DNA from: Couchioplanes azureus
GTDB taxonomy: Bacteria; Actinomycetota; Actinomycetes; Mycobacteriales; Micromonosporaceae
DNA: 64,000 nucleotides
Assembly: GCF_014648355.1 (NCBI RefSeq)
Contig: NZ_BMQY01000002.1
Span: forward strand, 580,389-644,388
Direction: 5' to 3'
The position numbers and the translations under genes are program-made. Position 1 is the first letter of the stretch. Each line of letters starts with the position of its first letter. Below the pieces are notes generated by a model, which ran no database searches, had not been told where the DNA came from, and saw nothing but the letters and a program-made list of their open reading frames with translations. This document shows, in pieces, positions 4,130 through 19,818 of this stretch.

Positions 4130-6619
4130 TTGTCTGTCCACCGCCGGCCGGGGAGGGCGCTCGTCGCGGCGCTCGCCCTGGCGTTGACCACCGTCGCGGT
4201 GCCCGCTCACGCGGCGCCCGGGGACTCCAAGATCGAGCCGCGGCTGCGCGCCCAGCTCGCGGCGAATGCCGGCGCCACCTTCTGGGTGGTGCTGCGGGAC
4301 CGGGCCGACCTGGGGCCGGCCCGGCGCGCCACCGGGACCCAGCGGGCCGAGCGGGTCCACCGGATCGCCACCGAGCATGCCGCGCGCAGCCAGGCCTCGG
4401 TGCGCGCGCTGCTGACGGCCCGCCGGGCGAGCTTCACGCCGTACTGGATCGCCAACACCGTCCGGGTCACCGGGGACGCCCGCCTCGCCGCGGCCGTCGC
4501 CGCCCGGCCCGAGGTCAGCCGGGTGCTCGCGGACAAGGTGGTCCCGCTGCCCAAGCTGACGCCCGCCGCCGCGCTCCCCCGCGTCCGCAGCGGCGCGCAG
4601 AACGCCGAGTGGAACCTCGCCCGCGTGCAGGCCCCCCGGGTGTGGGACGACCTGAGCGTCCGTGGCGACGGGATCGTCGTCGCCACCGTCGACACCGGGG
4701 TGCAGTACGACCACCCGGCGCTCGCCGCGAGCTACCGGGGCCGGGCGGCGGACGGCACGCTCCGGCACGACTACTCGTGGTTCGACCCGACCGGCCTGTG
4801 CGCCGACGGCGTACCGTGCGACAACGCCGGGCACGGCACCCACACGACCGGCACGATGGTCGGCCTCGACGGTGACCACGCGATCGGCGTGGCGCCCGGC
4901 GCCCGGTGGATCGCCGCCAAGGGGTGCGAGTCGAACGCCTGCTCCACCGCGTCGCTGCTCGCCGCCGGCCAGTGGATCGTCGCGCCGACCGACCGGGCGG
5001 GGAACGCCCCGCGGCCCGACCTCGCCCCCGACGTGGTGAACAACTCCTGGGGCGGCTGGGGGTTCGATCCGTGGTACGCGCAGATCGTCGACGCGTGGGT
5101 GGCGGCCGGCATCTTCCCGGCGTTCTCCAACGGCAACGCCGGCCCCGGGTGCGCCAGCGCCGGTTCCCCGGGCAACTACGCCGCGGCGTACGCCAGCGGC
5201 GCCCACGACCCGGCCGGCGCCATCGCCTCCTTCTCGAGCCGGGGCGGCGGCCAGGACGGCACCGTCAAGCCCGACATCGCCGCGCCCGGTGTCGACGTCC
5301 TCTCCAGCGTGCCGGGCGGGTACGCCAGCTACAGCGGCACGTCGATGGCGTCGCCGCACACCGCGGCGACGGTCGCCCTGCTCTGGTCGGCGGTGCCCGG
5401 CCTGCGGCGCGACATCGCCACCACGCGCCAGGTGCTCGACGCCACCGCCACGGACACCGACGACACCTCGTGCGGCGGCACCCCGGCCGACAACCAGGTG
5501 TACGGCGAGGGCCGGCTGGACGCGTACGCGGCGGTGTCCGGGGCCCGGCAACCGTCCGGCGTGCTCGCCGGCACCGTGACCGCGGAGGGCGCCGCACTCT
5601 CCGGGGCGACGGTCTCCGTCACCGGCACGGTGGCGCGGCAGGGCAGCACCGGCCCGGACGGCGCCTACCGGCTGGCGCTGCTCCCGCCGGGCACCTACGA
5701 GGCCACGATCACCCGGTACGGCTACCGTGCCATCGCCCGTACCGTGGTGGTCGCCGCCGGAGAGACCGCCCGGCTGGAGGCAAACCTGGAGCCGGCACCG
5801 GCCGCGACCCTGACCGGAACGGTCACCGGCACGCGGGGGCCGGTCGCCGGGGCGACGGTCGGGTTCGCCGGCACGCCCGCCACCACCCGGACCGACGCCG
5901 GCGGCCGGTTCACCCTGACCGCCCCGACCGGCCGGTACGAGCTGCGGGTGCAGCCGCGCGACGGCTGCGACGGCGTACGCACCCGCGGTATCGACTTCAC
6001 CGGCGACACGACGGTCGACCTCCCGCTGCCCGCCCACCGTGACGCCTACGGCTACTCGTGCGCGGCGACCGCCGGCGGCTACGCCGAGGGCACCCGGCGG
6101 CTGGAGCCGGACGGCCCCGACGACGGGACGGCCCGGATCGACCTGCCGTTCCCGCTGCCGTTCTACGGGGATCCGCAGCTGGCGGCATGGGTGTCGGTCA
6201 ACGGCCAGATCGCGTTCGGCGGGCCGGAGACGGCGTTCACCAACCTCGCCATCCCGGACCCGCTGCCGCCCAACCACATGATCTCGGCGTTCTGGGACGA
6301 CCTGTACGTCGACGAGCTGGGCGGCATCTACACCGCCAGCGGCGCCGACACGGTGGTCGTCGAGTGGCGCAACGTGCGGTTCTACGGTGACCCGTCGCAA
6401 CGCATCTCGATCAGCGTGGTGCTGGGTCGCGACGGCACGATCGCCGTGCACCACCGGGGCCTGCAGGGCGCCCTGGCCGACGGCGGCAGCGCCACCATCG
6501 GCATCGAGAACGCCGACGGCACGGACGGGCTGCAGTTCTCGTACGGTGCCGGCGTGGTCAGCGAGGGCGGCGGCGTGACCTTCCGCCCGCCCGGCGCCCC
6601 ACGGCTCCGGGGCCGCTGA
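4130..6619 (+). CDS. Secreted S8 serine protease (subtilase) with C-terminal accessory domains
   Basis: This 829-residue exported endopeptidase starts at TTG 4130 with a signal peptide (hydrophobic ALALTTVAVPAHA, cleavage near residue 28). A propeptide-like segment (~30-150) is followed by the subtilisin domain: Asp in VATVDTGV (~188), His in GHGTHTTG (~236), oxyanion Asn in SNGNAGP (~334) and Ser in GTSMASPH (~404). Two carboxypeptidase-regulatory-like beta-sandwich repeats follow (~480-560 and ~562-625; SGATVSVTG and AGATVGFAG strands). A final domain (~640-829) is of unknown type. The architecture recalls bacillopeptidase F-like subtilases. The role is probably extracellular protein degradation. 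The TTG start is supported by the signal peptide; upstream Shine-Dalgarno is weak (GAGGGGG). Confidence 0.92.
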   Translation: MSVHRRPGRALVAALALALTTVAVPAHAAPGDSKIEPRLRAQLAANAGATFWVVLRDRADLGPARRATGTQRAERVHRIATEHAARSQASVRALLTARRASFTPYWIANTVRVTGDARLAAAVAARPEVSRVLADKVVPLPKLTPAAALPRVRSGAQNAEWNLARVQAPRVWDDLSVRGDGIVVATVDTGVQYDHPALAASYRGRAADGTLRHDYSWFDPTGLCADGVPCDNAGHGTHTTGTMVGLDGDHAIGVAPGARWIAAKGCESNACSTASLLAAGQWIVAPTDRAGNAPRPDLAPDVVNNSWGGWGFDPWYAQIVDAWVAAGIFPAFSNGNAGPGCASAGSPGNYAAAYASGAHDPAGAIASFSSRGGGQDGTVKPDIAAPGVDVLSSVPGGYASYSGTSMASPHTAATVALLWSAVPGLRRDIATTRQVLDATATDTDDTSCGGTPADNQVYGEGRLDAYAAVSGARQPSGVLAGTVTAEGAALSGATVSVTGTVARQGSTGPDGAYRLALLPPGTYEATITRYGYRAIARTVVVAAGETARLEANLEPAPAATLTGTVTGTRGPVAGATVGFAGTPATTRTDAGGRFTLTAPTGRYELRVQPRDGCDGVRTRGIDFTGDTTVDLPLPAHRDAYGYSCAATAGGYAEGTRRLEPDGPDDGTARIDLPFPLPFYGDPQLAAWVSVNGQIAFGGPETAFTNLAIPDPLPPNHMISAFWDDLYVDELGGIYTASGADTVVVEWRNVRFYGDPSQRISISVVLGRDGTIAVHHRGLQGALADGGSATIGIENADGTDGLQFSYGAGVVSEGGGVTFRPPGAPRLRGR

Positions 6620-15491: not shown

Positions 15492-15590
15492 CGTGAGTGA
15501 ATACGGCAGCGAACAGCCCACGAGTGCTATCCAGGGTCCGTCTGCCGGGTCTTTTTGCACCATCAGGAGGCTGAGGCTCCGGCTGCCAAG

Positions 15591-15602
15591 CCGTACGTAC
15601 GG
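15591..15602. promoter_or_regulatory. Palindrome upstream of the AcnR-like gene
   Basis: CCGTACGTACGG is a perfect 12-bp palindrome 38 nt before the regulator's GTG, in the region shared with the HAD gene. It contains ACGTACGG, which also overlaps the acnA -10 hexamer. Candidate autoregulatory operator; inference. Confidence 0.4.
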
Positions 15603-15640
15603 ATTGCAAGCGCGCCGGGCGGCGTGACACCATCGCTTCC

Positions 15641-16216
15641 GTGCCCAGGGTAAGCCAGGACCAGCTAGAGGCCCGCCGCCACGAAATCCTCGCCGCGGCC
15701 CGCGGATGCTTCGCGCGGTACGGCTACGAGGGCGCCACCGTGCGCCGCCTCGAGGAGGCCACGGGCCTGTCCCGGGGCGCGATCTTCCACCATTTCCGGG
15801 ACAAGGACTCGCTGTTCCTCGCGGTCGCCGAGGACGACGCCGCCGCGATGGTCGAGACCGTCGCCCGCAACGGTCTCGTCCAGGTGATGCGCGACCTGCT
15901 GGAGCGGGCCGGGGCCAGCGGCGACACCGCGGGCTGGCTCGGCACCCAGCTGGAGGTCTCCCGGCGGCTGCGCACCGACCCCGAGTTCGCCCAGCGCTGG
16001 AGCGAGCGGGCCGCGGCGGTCGAGGCCGCCACCCGGGAGCGCCTGCAGCGCCAGCGCGACGCCCGCGTGCTGCGCGACGACGTGCCGGTCGACGTGCTGA
16101 CGCAGTTCCTCGAGCTGGCGTACGACGGGCTCGTGCTGCACCTGGCCACCGGCCGCCCGCCGGGCGAGCTGGGCCGGGTCCTCGACGTCGTGGAGGAAGC
16201 CGTCAGGCGGCCGTGA
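15641..16216 (+). CDS. acnR: TetR-family regulator, AcnR-like aconitase repressor
   Basis: This 191-residue TetR regulator has the N-terminal HTH at ~12-58 with RYGYEGATVRRLEEATGLSR and GAIFHHFRDKDSLFLAVA. These segments are nearly identical to what I recall of Corynebacterium glutamicum AcnR, which represses acn. The ligand domain also matches (ARNGLVQVMRDLLE, LRTDPEF, DVPVDVLTQFLE, LATG, VLDVVEEAVR). In corynebacteria acnR directly follows acn; here three genes intervene (one + strand, two - strand), so the link is loosened but not lost. Start GTG 15641, no clear Shine-Dalgarno. Citrate responsiveness is known for the corynebacterial protein, not shown here. Confidence 0.85.
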   Translation: MPRVSQDQLEARRHEILAAARGCFARYGYEGATVRRLEEATGLSRGAIFHHFRDKDSLFLAVAEDDAAAMVETVARNGLVQVMRDLLERAGASGDTAGWLGTQLEVSRRLRTDPEFAQRWSERAAAVEAATRERLQRQRDARVLRDDVPVDVLTQFLELAYDGLVLHLATGRPPGELGRVLDVVEEAVRRP

Positions 16217-16225
16217 CCTGAATGT

Positions 16226-16240
16226 TGCACTGATCTGCAC
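16226..16240. promoter_or_regulatory. TGCAC direct repeat ahead of the MNIO operon
   Basis: TGCAC-TGATC-TGCAC lies in the 61-nt gap between acnR and the membrane protein, 37 nt before the ATG. It may be an operator or part of the promoter (TTGCAC). Weak evidence. Confidence 0.25.
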
Positions 16241-16277
16241 AATGAGGGCCAGCAACCCTGCGAACACGGGAGGTCAC

Positions 16278-17201
16278 ATGGCCCTCGCAGCACAAGGCGA
16301 CACCTGGGGCATCTCCGGCCCGGCCTTCCTCCTGCTCTACGTCGCCGCCATGGTCGCGGTGGCGGTCATCGCGGTCGTCCACCGCCGCCTCCTGTTCTCC
16401 GGTCCCCGCGACGCCTCCGTCGACACGCTCGGTCCGCAGCAGGTGGCATACCTGAACGGCGGCGACAAGCTCGCCGTCTACGCATCCCTCGGCGGGCTGC
16501 GCGGTGCGGGAGCCATCGACAGCTCGGCGGGCAGCAAACTGAAGCAGAGCGGTCCCATGCCCGCCGGCGTCACCCCGCTCGACACCGCCGTCTACAACGC
16601 CGCGGGCCGGCGGATCCCGGTCCGTCAGGTCCTCGCCGACTCGTGGGTGCGCTCGGCACTCGACCAGCTGCGCGCCGGCCTGGAGGCGAACGGCCTCGCC
16701 GTCAGCGCGGCACAGACGCGCGCGGCCCGGTCCTGGCTCTTCGCCGGCCTGGCCCTGATCGCCCTGGGCGCCGCCCGGCTGGCCGCCGGAATCGCCAACG
16801 ACAAGCCGGTCGGCTTCCTCGTCGTCGCCCTGATCCCCGCCGTCGTCCTCACGATCTTCCTGGGCCGGGCCAACCGCCGGGCCACCGCGGTGGCGCGCAA
16901 GGGGATGGCCGACCTGCGGCGCCGGTACGACCACCTGGCGCCCCACCAGTCGCCGTCCTACGCGACCTACGGCGCGGCGGGTGCGGCGATGGGCGTGGCC
17001 CTGTTCGGCGCGGCGTCGCTCTACACCATGGACCCGGCCTTCGCGGCGGAGGCGGAGATCCAGCGCCTCAACGCCACCGGCAGCCCCAGCACCTGGACCT
17101 CCACCAGCTCCTGCGGCAGCAGCAGCTCCTCCTGCAGCAGCGGCAGCAGCTCCTGCGGTGGCGGCGGCGGGTGCGGAGGCGGCGGCGGGTGCGGCGGGTG
17201 A
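16278..17201 (+). CDS. TIGR04222-type membrane protein with Cys-rich Gly/Ser tail
   Basis: This 307-residue protein has a hydrophobic segment at ~15-34 (FLLLYVAAMVAVAVIAVV), a soluble domain (~40-145, with TPLDTAVYNAAG), two close membrane segments (~147-192) and a fourth (~228-248). The last 31 residues are almost only Ser, Gly and Cys, with Cys at 279, 286, 293, 299 and 305, spaced by 6, 6, 5 and 5 residues, ending CGG. This layout matches what I recall of family TIGR04222, whose members end in such tails and sit beside DUF692 genes. The tail looks like a modifiable substrate region. ATG 16278 has GGGAGG upstream; its stop overlaps the next start (GTGA). Function is unknown. Confidence 0.85.
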   Translation: MALAAQGDTWGISGPAFLLLYVAAMVAVAVIAVVHRRLLFSGPRDASVDTLGPQQVAYLNGGDKLAVYASLGGLRGAGAIDSSAGSKLKQSGPMPAGVTPLDTAVYNAAGRRIPVRQVLADSWVRSALDQLRAGLEANGLAVSAAQTRAARSWLFAGLALIALGAARLAAGIANDKPVGFLVVALIPAVVLTIFLGRANRRATAVARKGMADLRRRYDHLAPHQSPSYATYGAAGAAMGVALFGAASLYTMDPAFAAEAEIQRLNATGSPSTWTSTSSCGSSSSSCSSGSSSCGGGGGCGGGGGCGG

Positions 17202-18019
17202 ACCTGCCCGCGTACGGCGTCGGCATCGGCTGGCGCCCCGAGATCTCCGGCTACGTGGCCGCGCTGCCCGGGCTGCGCTTCACCGAGGTCGTCGCCGAGT
17301 CGCTGCACGCGCACGCCGAACTGCCCCGAGGCCTCGCCGAGCTGCGCGCACGCGGCGTCTCGGTGGTGCCGCACGGCGTCAAGCTCTCCCTCGGCGGCGC
17401 GGAGCCGGTCGACCCCGCCCGGGTCGGCCACCTGGCGGCGGTCGCCCGGCGCCTCGATGCCCCGCTGGTCAGCGAGCACATCGCGTTCGTACGGGCGGGC
17501 GGGGTGGAGGCCGGGCACCTGCTCCCCGTGCCCCGCAGCCGGGAGGCCGTCGACGCGGTGGTCGCCAACGTGCGGCGTACCCGCGAGGAGCTGGACGTGC
17601 CGCTCGCCCTCGAACCGATCGCCGCCCTGTTCGACTGGCCGGACGACGAGCTCGACGAGGGTGCGTTCCTGACCGAGATCCTCGAGCGTACGGACGCCCT
17701 GCTGCTGCTCGACGTGGCTAACGTGTACGCCAACGCGCGTAACCGCGGCACCGACCCGGCCGCCCTGCTCGACCGGCTGCCGCTCGACCGGATCGCCTAC
17801 TGCCACGTGGCCGGCGGCTCGGCGCACGACGGCGTCTACCACGACACGCACACCGACGCGGTGCCGCGGGAGGTGCTCGACCTCGTCGCGGAGCTCTGCC
17901 GACGGCACCGGCCCCCGGCGCTGATGCTGGAACGCGACGGCGCCTACCCGCCCGCCGCCGAGCTGTCTGCCGAGCTGGACGCGATCGCCGCCGCGTCCGG
18001 ATATCCGGTGGTCACATGA
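17198..18019 (+). CDS. DUF692 / MNIO family (multinuclear non-heme iron oxidase)
   Basis: This 273-residue TIM-barrel protein belongs to DUF692, now called MNIO, whose studied members (MbnB, TglH and others) use two or three iron ions to modify cysteines of ribosomal peptides. Likely ligands are visible in order: VVPHGVKLSL, SEHIAF, LALEPIAAL, LLLDVANVYANA, CHVAGGSAHDG with HDTHTD, and LERDG. All family positions appear intact. It starts at GTG 17198 inside the preceding stop (4-nt overlap) and overlaps the next gene the same way, implying coupled translation. The neighbouring Cys-rich tail is the obvious candidate substrate; this is inference from context. Confidence 0.92.
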   Translation: MNLPAYGVGIGWRPEISGYVAALPGLRFTEVVAESLHAHAELPRGLAELRARGVSVVPHGVKLSLGGAEPVDPARVGHLAAVARRLDAPLVSEHIAFVRAGGVEAGHLLPVPRSREAVDAVVANVRRTREELDVPLALEPIAALFDWPDDELDEGAFLTEILERTDALLLLDVANVYANARNRGTDPAALLDRLPLDRIAYCHVAGGSAHDGVYHDTHTDAVPREVLDLVAELCRRHRPPALMLERDGAYPPAAELSAELDAIAAASGYPVVT

Positions 18020-18453
18020 CGTCCCTGGCCGAACGGCAAGCGGCGCTCGTCGCGGCGCTGACCTCGGGCGCGCCCGTACCCCCGGGTTTCGACGCCCGGC
18101 TGGTCGGGATCGCCCGGGTCGCGCTGCTGCGCAAGCGGGCCGGCGAGGTCGCACGGCAGTGGCCCGAGCTGGCCGCGGCCCTCGGCCCGCGGTGGCCGGA
18201 CGTGTGGGCCGGGTGGGCCGCGCACCGCCCGACCCAGGGTTCGCTGCGCGACGGCTGGGACCTGGCCCGCGACCTCGCCGGCCGGGGCGACCTGCCCCCG
18301 GCCGCCGCGGCCGAGCTCGCCACCCGCGAGGCGGCGATGCGCTACGACGGCCGGTCGGCGCCGCAGACCCGCCGCCTGCCCGCACTGCGCCGCGCCGGCG
18401 GCTGCCTCGCTCTCCAGGCCGGCGGCCGGGTACGCGTCCTACGCCGCCCCTGA
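18016..18453 (+). CDS. Partner protein of the MNIO oxidase (unknown function)
   Basis: This 145-residue protein starts at an ATG overlapping the oxidase stop (ATGA). It is largely helical: LAERQAALVAALTSG, ARVALLRKRAGEVARQWPEL, then a short C-terminal Arg-rich strand segment (RYDGRSAP, RAGGCLALQAGGRVRVLRRP). MNIO enzymes commonly need a small partner that binds the substrate leader, and this gene has the right position. It is not a clear match to the usual DUF2063 partner; it resembles a short protein found beside DUF692 in streptomycetes. Its last 15 nt overlap the convergent HEAT-like gene. Confidence 0.7.
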   Translation: MTSLAERQAALVAALTSGAPVPPGFDARLVGIARVALLRKRAGEVARQWPELAAALGPRWPDVWAGWAAHRPTQGSLRDGWDLARDLAGRGDLPPAAAAELATREAAMRYDGRSAPQTRRLPALRRAGGCLALQAGGRVRVLRRP

Positions 18454-19818
18454 GCCGCCGCTGCCCGTCGCCGTGGCGCGGGCCGTCGCGAGCAGCCGGT
18501 CGCGCAGCAGCTCGTCGTTGACGACGATGTCGTCGTCGGCGCCGCCGACGGTCAGCCGCTCGTCGCGCGCGGCCAGCCGGGCCGCCTCCGCCGTCGCGCC
18601 CAGCTCGTGCAGCAGGGCGACCGCCGCGGCCGGGCGCCGGCCCTCCTCGACCGCCCGCGCCGCGACCGGCACCAGCTCGCCGGCCGCGGCGCCGAGCCGC
18701 CACAGCGCACCGGCCGCCGCCACACCGGCCCACGGGTCGTCCAGCAGGGCTCGCAGCTCCGGCACCCAGACGGCCATCTCTCCCCGCCATCCGCCGCCGC
18801 TCGCCCCGGGACCGGCCGCGGCCAGGTCGGCCACCACGGCGGCGGCCAGCACCGCGCGGTGCCCACCGGCGGTGAGGACGGCGTGCAGGGTCGGCAGCGC
18901 CGCGGTGGTGTCCCCCGTCGCGGCGATCACCACCTGGGCCGCGAGGACCTGCGCGGCGCACTGGGGCGGGGCGGCGGCGGCCTCCCCGGTCAGCAGCAGC
19001 TCGAACTCGGGCACCAGCGGCAGCGCCAGCGGGCCGAGCAGCGCGACCACGCCGGGCGGCACGGGCGGCCGCGCGGTCAGCAGGGCCCGCAGGGCGGGCG
19101 TGGGGTCACCGGTGAGCCGGAACAACGCGGTGGCGGCCGGCAGTCCCCCGGGCCGGGACGCGGCCGCCCGCAGGCCGGGAACCATCGGCGCACCGAGATG
19201 ACCCGCGGCGAGCAGCGCCCGGGTCGCCGCCCCCGGCGCATGCGGCAGGGCATCGAGCAGTTCCGGCACCGTCTCCCGGGCGTCGGTTCCCCACCGGGCC
19301 ACGATCTCGCACAAGGTTGCGAGGGCGCCCGCTCCCCCGGCAGCCTCGCCGGCGCTTTCCCCGGCAGCCTCCCCGCGGCCACTCTCCGCGCGGGCGATGA
19401 GGGTGGCCAGGCGGCGGCGGACGGTGTCACGGACCTCGGGCGGGCACGGCAGCGGCATCAGGGCGTGTGGCAGCAGGGCGGCGCCCTCGCAAACGACCGG
19501 GTCGACCCAGCGCGGGTCACCGATCAGCATGAGCGTCTCGACCGCCCGGCGCCGCGTCGCCGGCTCCGGCGCCGCGGCCGCCGCCTCGCCGAGGAAGCCG
19601 GCATACCGCGCCGCGGCCCGGCCGCACCGGCGCAGGGCCACCACCGCGTCGTCCCGCGAGCGCGGATCGTGCACCAAGGGCTCCAGCAACGGTACGAGCC
19701 GCGCGGGCGCCGACCGGGCCGCCTGGCAGCGCGCGGTCAGCTCCCCGAGGGCGGCACGGCGGGCCTCGGGGTCCGTCCCGGTCAATGCCGCCTGGTCCAC
19801 CCCGTCGTCGTCGAGCAC
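18439..19818 (-). CDS. HEAT-like repeat protein of unknown function
   Basis: This 459-residue protein is Ala/Leu-rich and made of repeated helical pairs such as EARRAALGELTARC, DAVVALRRCGRAAARYAGFL, ALATLCEIVARWG and VPELLDALPHAPGAATRALLAAGHLG. The pattern suggests an alpha-solenoid scaffold without catalytic motifs. A SGEAAGE-type acidic linker sits near residues 150-165. The start is GTG 19818, with TAGGGT 6 nt upstream and no Shine-Dalgarno. Its 3' end overlaps the MNIO partner gene by 15 nt on the opposite strand. No partner can be named. Confidence 0.65.
   Translation of the reverse strand: MLDDDGVDQAALTGTDPEARRAALGELTARCQAARSAPARLVPLLEPLVHDPRSRDDAVVALRRCGRAAARYAGFLGEAAAAAPEPATRRRAVETLMLIGDPRWVDPVVCEGAALLPHALMPLPCPPEVRDTVRRRLATLIARAESGRGEAAGESAGEAAGGAGALATLCEIVARWGTDARETVPELLDALPHAPGAATRALLAAGHLGAPMVPGLRAAASRPGGLPAATALFRLTGDPTPALRALLTARPPVPPGVVALLGPLALPLVPEFELLLTGEAAAAPPQCAAQVLAAQVVIAATGDTTAALPTLHAVLTAGGHRAVLAAAVVADLAAAGPGASGGGWRGEMAVWVPELRALLDDPWAGVAAAGALWRLGAAAGELVPVAARAVEEGRRPAAAVALLHELGATAEAARLAARDERLTVGGADDDIVVNDELLRDRLLATARATATGSGGSGAA

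Follow-up and report, generated by a model that had tools for sequence, protein, structure and literature searches.

What does an oxidase of the MNIO family act on when the gene that overlaps its own encodes a multi-span membrane protein? Characterised MNIO enzymes are described as rewriting residues of peptides. The locus that raises the question lies in Couchioplanes azureus (contig NZ_BMQY01000002.1, positions 580,389 to 644,388 of the forward strand; this whole stretch of 64,000 nucleotides is the window) and encodes in succession a TIGR04222 membrane protein with a cysteine-bearing tail, an MNIO and a small third protein (Table 1). Our best explanation, which we infer and hold to be fairly probable, is that the MNIO and the third protein, acting as its partner, oxidise the tail cysteines, and that the tail is displayed outside the cell, where it perhaps binds copper. 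The cassette belongs to a kind that has already been predicted in print (Antoine et al. 2025, PMC12452194).

Together the three genes make up one unit, a conserved three-gene cassette. The stop codon TGA of the membrane-protein gene (17199–17201) overlaps the GTG start of the MNIO gene at 17198 as GTGA, and the MNIO stop codon TGA (18017–18019) overlaps the ATG start of the third gene at 18016 as ATGA; a preliminary description of the locus had these coordinates and overlaps exactly. Among 47 loci in which a TIGR04222 gene is linked to an MNIO gene directly downstream, 37 have a possible MNIO start codon that shares bases with the stop codon of the TIGR04222 gene, 26 of them as NTGA. The start of the membrane-protein gene at ATG 16278, which yields 307 residues, is preceded by a Shine–Dalgarno-like stretch, GGGAGG; an alternative in-frame ATG at 16242 would yield 319 residues and has no such stretch. 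The C. azureus genome holds a single MNIO, that of the window, and a single TIGR04222 protein above the cut-off. A second, weak TIGR04222 match in this genome (31 bits; C15) ends in a glycine stretch without cysteine; it was missed by the profile built in the analysis and stands outside the tail and MNIO counts. A promoter and terminator scan of 15500–18700 found neither.

The membrane protein matches the NCBIfam family TIGR04222 (near_uncomplex) with 158 bits against a cut-off of 43. An AlphaFold2 model built from 13 sequences (mean predicted local distance difference test score, pLDDT, of 78) has four predicted membrane helices (residues 14–39, 144–173, 179–197 and 229–251), the first of which is followed by the TIGR04222 domain, folded in the model (approximately residues 40–143, DNA 16395–16706). 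From about residue 268 the protein ends in a disordered Cys/Gly/Ser tail with five cysteines and a Cys-Gly-Gly end, where residues 268–299 and 301–305 have a pLDDT below 50. This agrees with the multi-span protein with a Cys/Gly/Ser C-terminal tail that had been recognised at the outset.

The 47 linked loci, 36 from an order-wide family search and 11 retrieved through their similarity to the membrane protein of the window, all encode two to eight tail cysteines, and 44 of the proteins end in Cys-Gly-Gly. The codons GGC, AGC, TGC and CGC are one base apart. In the last 30 codons of the 47 tails, GGC (Gly) occurs 446 times, TGC (Cys) 154 times and AGC (Ser) 137 times, while CGC (Arg) does not occur, nor does an arginine codon of any other type. 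From this pattern of NGC codons without arginine, it follows that selection retains cysteine in the tail and excludes arginine. The residue after a tail cysteine is glycine in 170 cases, serine in 37 and alanine in two. Drift in a G+C-rich repeat was considered as the origin of the tail and rejected, since CGC is absent although one base from the other NGC codons. A scan for the CGG-type tail pattern in ten genomes, including MNIO genomes without a linked Cys tail, returned about as many matches as the backward control, or fewer.

The oxidase matches Pfam PF05114 with 274.1 bits, where the gathering cut-off is 25. The iron ligands of TglH are given as His71, His107, Glu151, Asp184, Asn187, His216, Asp229, His231 and Glu258 (PMC10880893), and all nine have counterparts in the window MNIO: H59, H94, E139, D172, N175, H203, D216, H218 and E245. 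The mapping was made by eye from alignments, with H59 placed via 3bww, as the TglH alignment begins at residue 71. Eight of the nine ligands are identical in all 50 MNIO sequences (the window's included) and E245 in 49, with one gap, so the intact metal-ligand set read from the preliminary description of a DUF692/MNIO protein holds. Against the product-level models of NCBIfam, the MNIO scored 183.6 bits for BufB (cut-off 310), 165.3 for HvfB (360), 110.4 for ApyH (400), 70.8 for ChrH (600) and 30.3 for MbnB (325), and because each score is under its cut-off it is, by this test, a member of none of these five product families.

Co-inheritance of the cysteine tail and the MNIO was counted in an order sample of 121 genomes, all searched with both families. 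We fetched 59 regions, around each TIGR04222 match above the cut-off, each MNIO and one weak match (G000:C15; G and L numbers are our handles for genomes and loci); of the other TIGR04222 matches below the cut-off, that of G076 lay within a fetched region and 14 were left out. Tails were scored by a script with profiles built in the analysis, and a copy was called linked when it ended less than 600 bases before an MNIO gene. By hand count, TIGR04222 occurs above the cut-off in 42 genomes, PF05114 in 42 and both in 39. The 42 TIGR04222 genomes contain 72 copies, and at least two tail cysteines were found in all 36 copies directly upstream of an MNIO gene, in 13 of 20 copies that lie in the same cluster at a greater distance upstream, and in 2 of 14 unlinked copies (those with no MNIO gene on the same strand in the fetched region); the remaining two copies lie at contig breaks, one with a Cys tail and one without. 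All 37 genomes with a Cys-tailed copy also have an MNIO, and five MNIO genomes are without such a copy. In two of these (G084 and G112) the cassette is cut by contig ends, while two others (G009 and G086) hold other MNIOs without a third gene. Six unlinked paralogues from one genus (L086, L094–L097 and L102) keep the domain and have a short, Arg-rich end with no tail cysteine.

A phylum sample of 246 genomes gave 45 with a TIGR04222 match at E up to 0.001, of which 10 were above the cut-off; most of the weak matches were left out. Here TIGR04222 above the cut-off was present in 10 genomes, MNIO in 14 and both in nine, and G148 has TIGR04222 fragments without cysteine on a short contig, and no MNIO. 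The preliminary description had proposed a survey of the co-occurrence of the two families in genomic neighbourhoods, and the pairing came through it: an MNIO is present in 39 of the order sample's 42 genomes with TIGR04222, and the Cys tail tracks the MNIO.

Two further arrangements were seen in family f15. Nine loci (L082, L085, L089, L091, L093, L100, L101, L105 and L106) have a SelR/MsrB-like gene upstream of the TIGR04222 genes (L082 3436–3876; checked by Pfam in L082), and in seven of these nine a chlorite-dismutase-like gene lies on the opposite strand, approximately 1.9–2.8 kb from the MNIO start. At L082, L085, L089, L091, L093, L100, L101 and L106, a single MNIO is preceded by two to four TIGR04222 genes in tandem; the copy nearest the MNIO is Cys-tailed in all eight arrays and the other copies are not always so.

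The third gene is nearly as constant as the tail. In 46 of the 47 linked loci, a homologue is located within 900 bases downstream of the MNIO gene (47 of 48 MNIO rows, since L113 was split into two rows). MNIO and third protein share one reading frame in Parafrankia EUN1f (L043 5906–7327) and in five loci of the related genus g52 (L132 2436–3731, L133 3673–5298, L134 6077–7513, L136 3291–4871 and L137 3201–5303). The third protein has no family match in Pfam or NCBIfam, DUF2063 included; its position directly after the MNIO gene and the lack of a DUF2063 match in Pfam make it a candidate for the partners termed PME-type 2. Across 396 genomes, DUF2063 matches were found in three and above the cut-off in one. 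An AlphaFold2 model of the third protein from 12 sequences (pLDDT 89) has five helices and three strands, and its top VIA match among 391 chains was the methanobactin partner MbnC (7dz9_C; Z 5.1, 3.2 Å, 81 residues), followed by the DUF2063 protein NGO1945 (3dee; Z 4.4, 4.5 Å, 81 residues), with the third row at Z 3.1. Neither the single sequence of the third protein nor a profile built on it had a match in a sequence search of the Protein Data Bank, and Foldseek with the model gave no significant match. TglI, another MNIO partner, was not among the VIA rows, which is no evidence against a partner role. Because the gene is near-constant and sometimes fused to the MNIO gene, and the top two fold matches are both MNIO partners, the third protein is probably the MNIO's own partner subunit, the fold match being weak and yet specific. 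What had been called simply a small partner is thus conserved after the MNIO, and is better described as a probable MNIO partner subunit. In genome G033 (L113, approximately 5035–6258), the MNIO gene and the third gene each appear to be split over two frames, by frameshifts or sequencing errors.

On which side of the membrane the tail lies was judged from charge. Lysine and arginine make up 12% of residues 40–143 and 22% of residues 198–228, compared with 4% of the N-terminus and 2.0% of the tail, and in each of the 47 proteins these residues, segments taken together, are denser in the regions predicted to be cytosolic than in those predicted to lie outside. On account of this bias, the tail is predicted to be outside and the TIGR04222 domain cytosolic. 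Antoine et al. (PMC12452194), in the text as seen, speak of ‘large periplasmic domain(s)’, whereas here charge puts the TIGR04222 domain in the cytosol. The same evidence bears on a different role for the membrane protein, in which it would be no substrate but an anchor or partner keeping the oxidase at the membrane, and the tail cysteines would deliver metal or hold the complex together. A domain that is predicted to be cytosolic, and is folded in the model, would suit an anchor, and an MNIO with a transmembrane partner is mentioned in PMC10880893; but 46 of 47 loci already have a distinct partner-like gene, and charge puts the tail across the membrane from the enzyme, and we regard an anchoring role as highly improbable.

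The TIGR04222 domain resembles GPP34/GOLPH3, which we had picked as a candidate fold relative before the fold search. Profiles of 59 TIGR04222 and 10 GPP34 sequences of the same phylum aligned by hhalign over 124 columns with P of 7e-5 and 3e-5 (probability 63% and 72%) in the two directions, whereas the best of 40 column shuffles gave a P of 0.069, the reversed alignment 0.14 and unrelated profile pairs 0.06–0.45. The membrane-protein model matched GOLPH3 chains 9qpq_B (Z 7.1, 5.1 Å, 151 residues) and 3kn1 (Z 6.8, 5.1 Å, 145 residues) at ranks 9 and 12, beneath unrelated helical matches reaching Z 10.3; Foldseek with this model gave no significant match. We claim resemblance alone, because the membrane protein has no match to the Pfam GPP34 family (PF05719) at E up to 1. 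It also differs in that the helices aligned with the later GPP34 helices appear to be membrane-spanning, and there is no ground on which to expect phosphoinositide binding by the TIGR04222 domain. DUF2207_C is weakly related to seven of 13 TIGR04222 proteins (Pfam, best E 0.00058). No paper linking GPP34 to TIGR04222 by its title or the start of its abstract was found in the open-access literature searched.

Taken together as a mechanism, our explanation would run as follows. The MNIO and the third protein would form a two-subunit oxidase, to which the third protein would bring the substrate, namely the Cys/Gly/Ser tail specified by the membrane-protein gene immediately upstream. While still cytosolic, the tail would be oxidised at some or all of its Cys-Gly/Ser sites, the product most likely being 5-thiooxazoles, as in other MNIO products. 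The last membrane helix would then leave the modified tail outside and membrane-anchored, and at the cell surface its heterocycles would probably serve as ligands for copper or a different soft metal. A modified, membrane-tethered tail had been suggested from the outset; with the Cys tail tracking the MNIO it stands as the best reading, whereas modification, metal binding and a redox role still belong to what the locus suggests. We would first suspect a 5-thiooxazole, since this is what MNIOs of the best-scoring families produce, and their products bind copper (PMC12668002, preprint).

Known MNIO systems are similar in part. Like the window cassette, bufferins and captophorins (MNIO with a PME-type 1 partner; copper binders with 5-thiooxazoles) combine a Cys-containing substrate, an MNIO and a partner encoded after it, and their models, BufB and HvfB, are the best scoring for the window MNIO, yet far from their cut-offs. 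The precursors in these systems are for the most part exported peptides that have Sec signals and EGKCG or DUF2282 signatures and go with DUF2063 partners; the window instead has a four-helix membrane protein, Cys-Gly/Ser sites in its tail and no DUF2063 match, and no bufferin signature (DUF2282 or other Pfam or NCBIfam model) was found in the membrane protein at E up to 1. Methanobactin MbnBC is likewise a two-subunit enzyme of MNIO and partner, and MbnC is the best VIA match of the third protein, but the window MNIO falls well short of MbnB, and the candidate precursor, instead of being a short peptide, is a membrane protein. More tentatively, and as a possibility that we would not yet favour, the system may be a membrane-tethered captophorin, in which MNIO and partner would convert tail residues of a polytopic membrane protein to several thiooxazoles and so make a permanent soft-metal trap on the outer face of the actinobacterial membrane, with the GPP34/GOLPH3-like cytosolic domain recruited as a docking leader by which the tail would be offered to the enzyme ahead of export. 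To our knowledge, this would be the first modification of the type found in ribosomally synthesised and post-translationally modified peptides on a multi-span membrane protein.

Alternatively, the tail could be modified and then cut by a protease, releasing a metallophore, the TIGR04222 domain then being an elaborate leader. Modification is a step common to this reading and our explanation, so the two are not exclusive. Other MNIO products are peptides (PMC12452194, PMC12668002), and the long Gly/Ser linkers with the Cys-Gly-Gly end would suit an autonomous peptide. We nevertheless think release decidedly unlikely, since the three-gene cassette contains no protease gene (neighbours and genome were not screened for proteases, nor was a cleavage motif searched for) and the neighbours vary between genome families.

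Several observations weigh against oxidation of the tail by the MNIO and its partner. Similarity to partner folds is weak, with a Foldseek E of 4.8 for 7dz9_C; a VIA Z below 8 may, by the tool's own warning, mean just a common arrangement, and hhalign of the third protein with one DUF2063 protein gave a P of 0.1, where the smallest of 100 shuffles gave 0.061. G101 (L119) has a linked Cys tail and no third gene was found there. The short loop 174–178, predicted to be outside, has 16% Lys+Arg. For the co-inheritance, a Fisher P of 5e-26 overstates independence as the genomes are related; two unlinked copies in the order sample are Cys-tailed (L104 and L108), both in genomes with an MNIO elsewhere, and in the phylum sample G133 has a linked copy with a single tail cysteine (L139). 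G073, the fifth order-sample genome with an MNIO and no Cys-tailed copy, has an MNIO and a third gene and no TIGR04222, and among the reading frames immediately upstream there is no clear substitute. In genus g52, five of six MNIO genomes of the phylum sample are without a linked Cys tail and keep MNIO and third gene: a Cys-tailed TIGR04222 lies downstream of the MNIO in L132, the linked TIGR04222 protein has no Cys tail in L133–L135, and L136 and L137 have no TIGR04222 at all. Either another substrate exists in g52 or the system is decaying there. Extra unlinked TIGR04222 copies with one tail cysteine occur in g52 genomes G276 and G297 (L141 and L142). Around the fused MNIO of L133, L134, L136 and L137 are a PTH2-type protein, a DUF4142 protein and a larger Cys-containing protein, the first two assignments having been checked by Pfam in L133 only.

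Genus g52 and G073 are also what would be expected if the MNIO and its partner acted on a substrate encoded elsewhere and the Cys tail were an unmodified thiol tail, for metal binding or redox, that merely shares the operon. Set against this are the MNIO in every order-sample genome with a Cys tail, the rarity of Cys tails among unlinked copies, the window genome's single MNIO within this very operon, and neighbour families that vary between genome families outside the cassette (their cysteine content was not scored); we consider a substrate elsewhere unlikely. The preliminary description had held that genomes with the two genes regularly apart would speak against the pairing, and such genomes do exist in part, in g52, where TIGR04222 is Cys-less or absent while MNIO and partner persist.

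That TIGR04222 proteins, or a subset of them, are MNIO substrates with the tail outside was proposed by Antoine et al. 2025 (PMC12452194). As far as its text was available, that paper assigns to TIGR04222 40% of the more than 1,000 signal-less proteins with cysteines whose genes precede an MNIO gene, describes the Ser/Gly tail with cysteines, and defines PME-type 2 partners, found in at least 10% of TIGR04222 clusters. Its clusters share with the window the TIGR04222 family, the order precursor–MNIO–partner and a Ser/Gly tail with interspersed cysteines, and are mostly from Actinomycetota; the window locus has such a tail, with five cysteines, on a gene overlapping that of the MNIO. The link is looser there: 490 of its 1372 TIGR04222 genomes lack an MNIO, and over a quarter of the proteins have no C-proximal cysteine, whereas in our narrower sample the Cys tail tracks the MNIO and the third gene is near-constant. 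The main text, as seen, has no cross-tabulation of Cys tails against MNIO presence. The study describes itself as in silico, and modification of the TIGR04222 tail is a prediction there too. A TIGR04222 ‘peptide’ is named in a bacteriocin-type cluster in PMC5183585, and no further TIGR04222 study was found in the open-access literature searched. The preliminary description knew of no established function for the pairing; the pairing itself had already been predicted, and its function is still prediction only. New here are the count of cysteine–MNIO co-inheritance with its control of Cys-less paralogues, the arginine-exclusion test, a third gene that is near-constant and in some loci fused to the MNIO gene, and a GPP34-like domain that is probably cytosolic.

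A gene for a TetR-family regulator lies directly upstream of the cassette. By neighbour clustering, it has relatives in 17 loci; for 16 of these a position is listed, and all 16 belong to the window's family or to records named as Actinoplanes, Phytohabitans or Micromonospora type.

Table 1. Features of the cassette and its upstream neighbour, in window coordinates.
Feature	Position	Strand	Basis
TIGR04222 membrane protein, 307 residues	16278..17201	+	NCBIfam match, AlphaFold2 model, charge bias
DNA of the Ser/Gly/Cys tail (residues 268–307), proposed substrate segment	17079..17198	+	sequence, five cysteines, Arg-free codon pattern in 47 tails
MNIO (formerly DUF692) oxidase, 273 residues, GTG start	17198..18019	+	PF05114 match, iron ligands
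Third protein, 145 residues, putative MNIO partner (PME-type 2), ATG start	18016..18453	+	position, conservation, weak fold matches
TetR-family regulator gene, upstream, possible operon regulator	15641..16216	+	PF00440, 58.4 bits; neighbour clustering

The cassette is present in about one third of the order-sample genomes (37 of 121 with a Cys-tailed copy and an MNIO). It is small and intact in C. azureus, and the Cys-less paralogues provide ready controls. If our explanation is true, the chemistry of ribosomal peptides would also be a route to metal-binding proteins of the cell surface.

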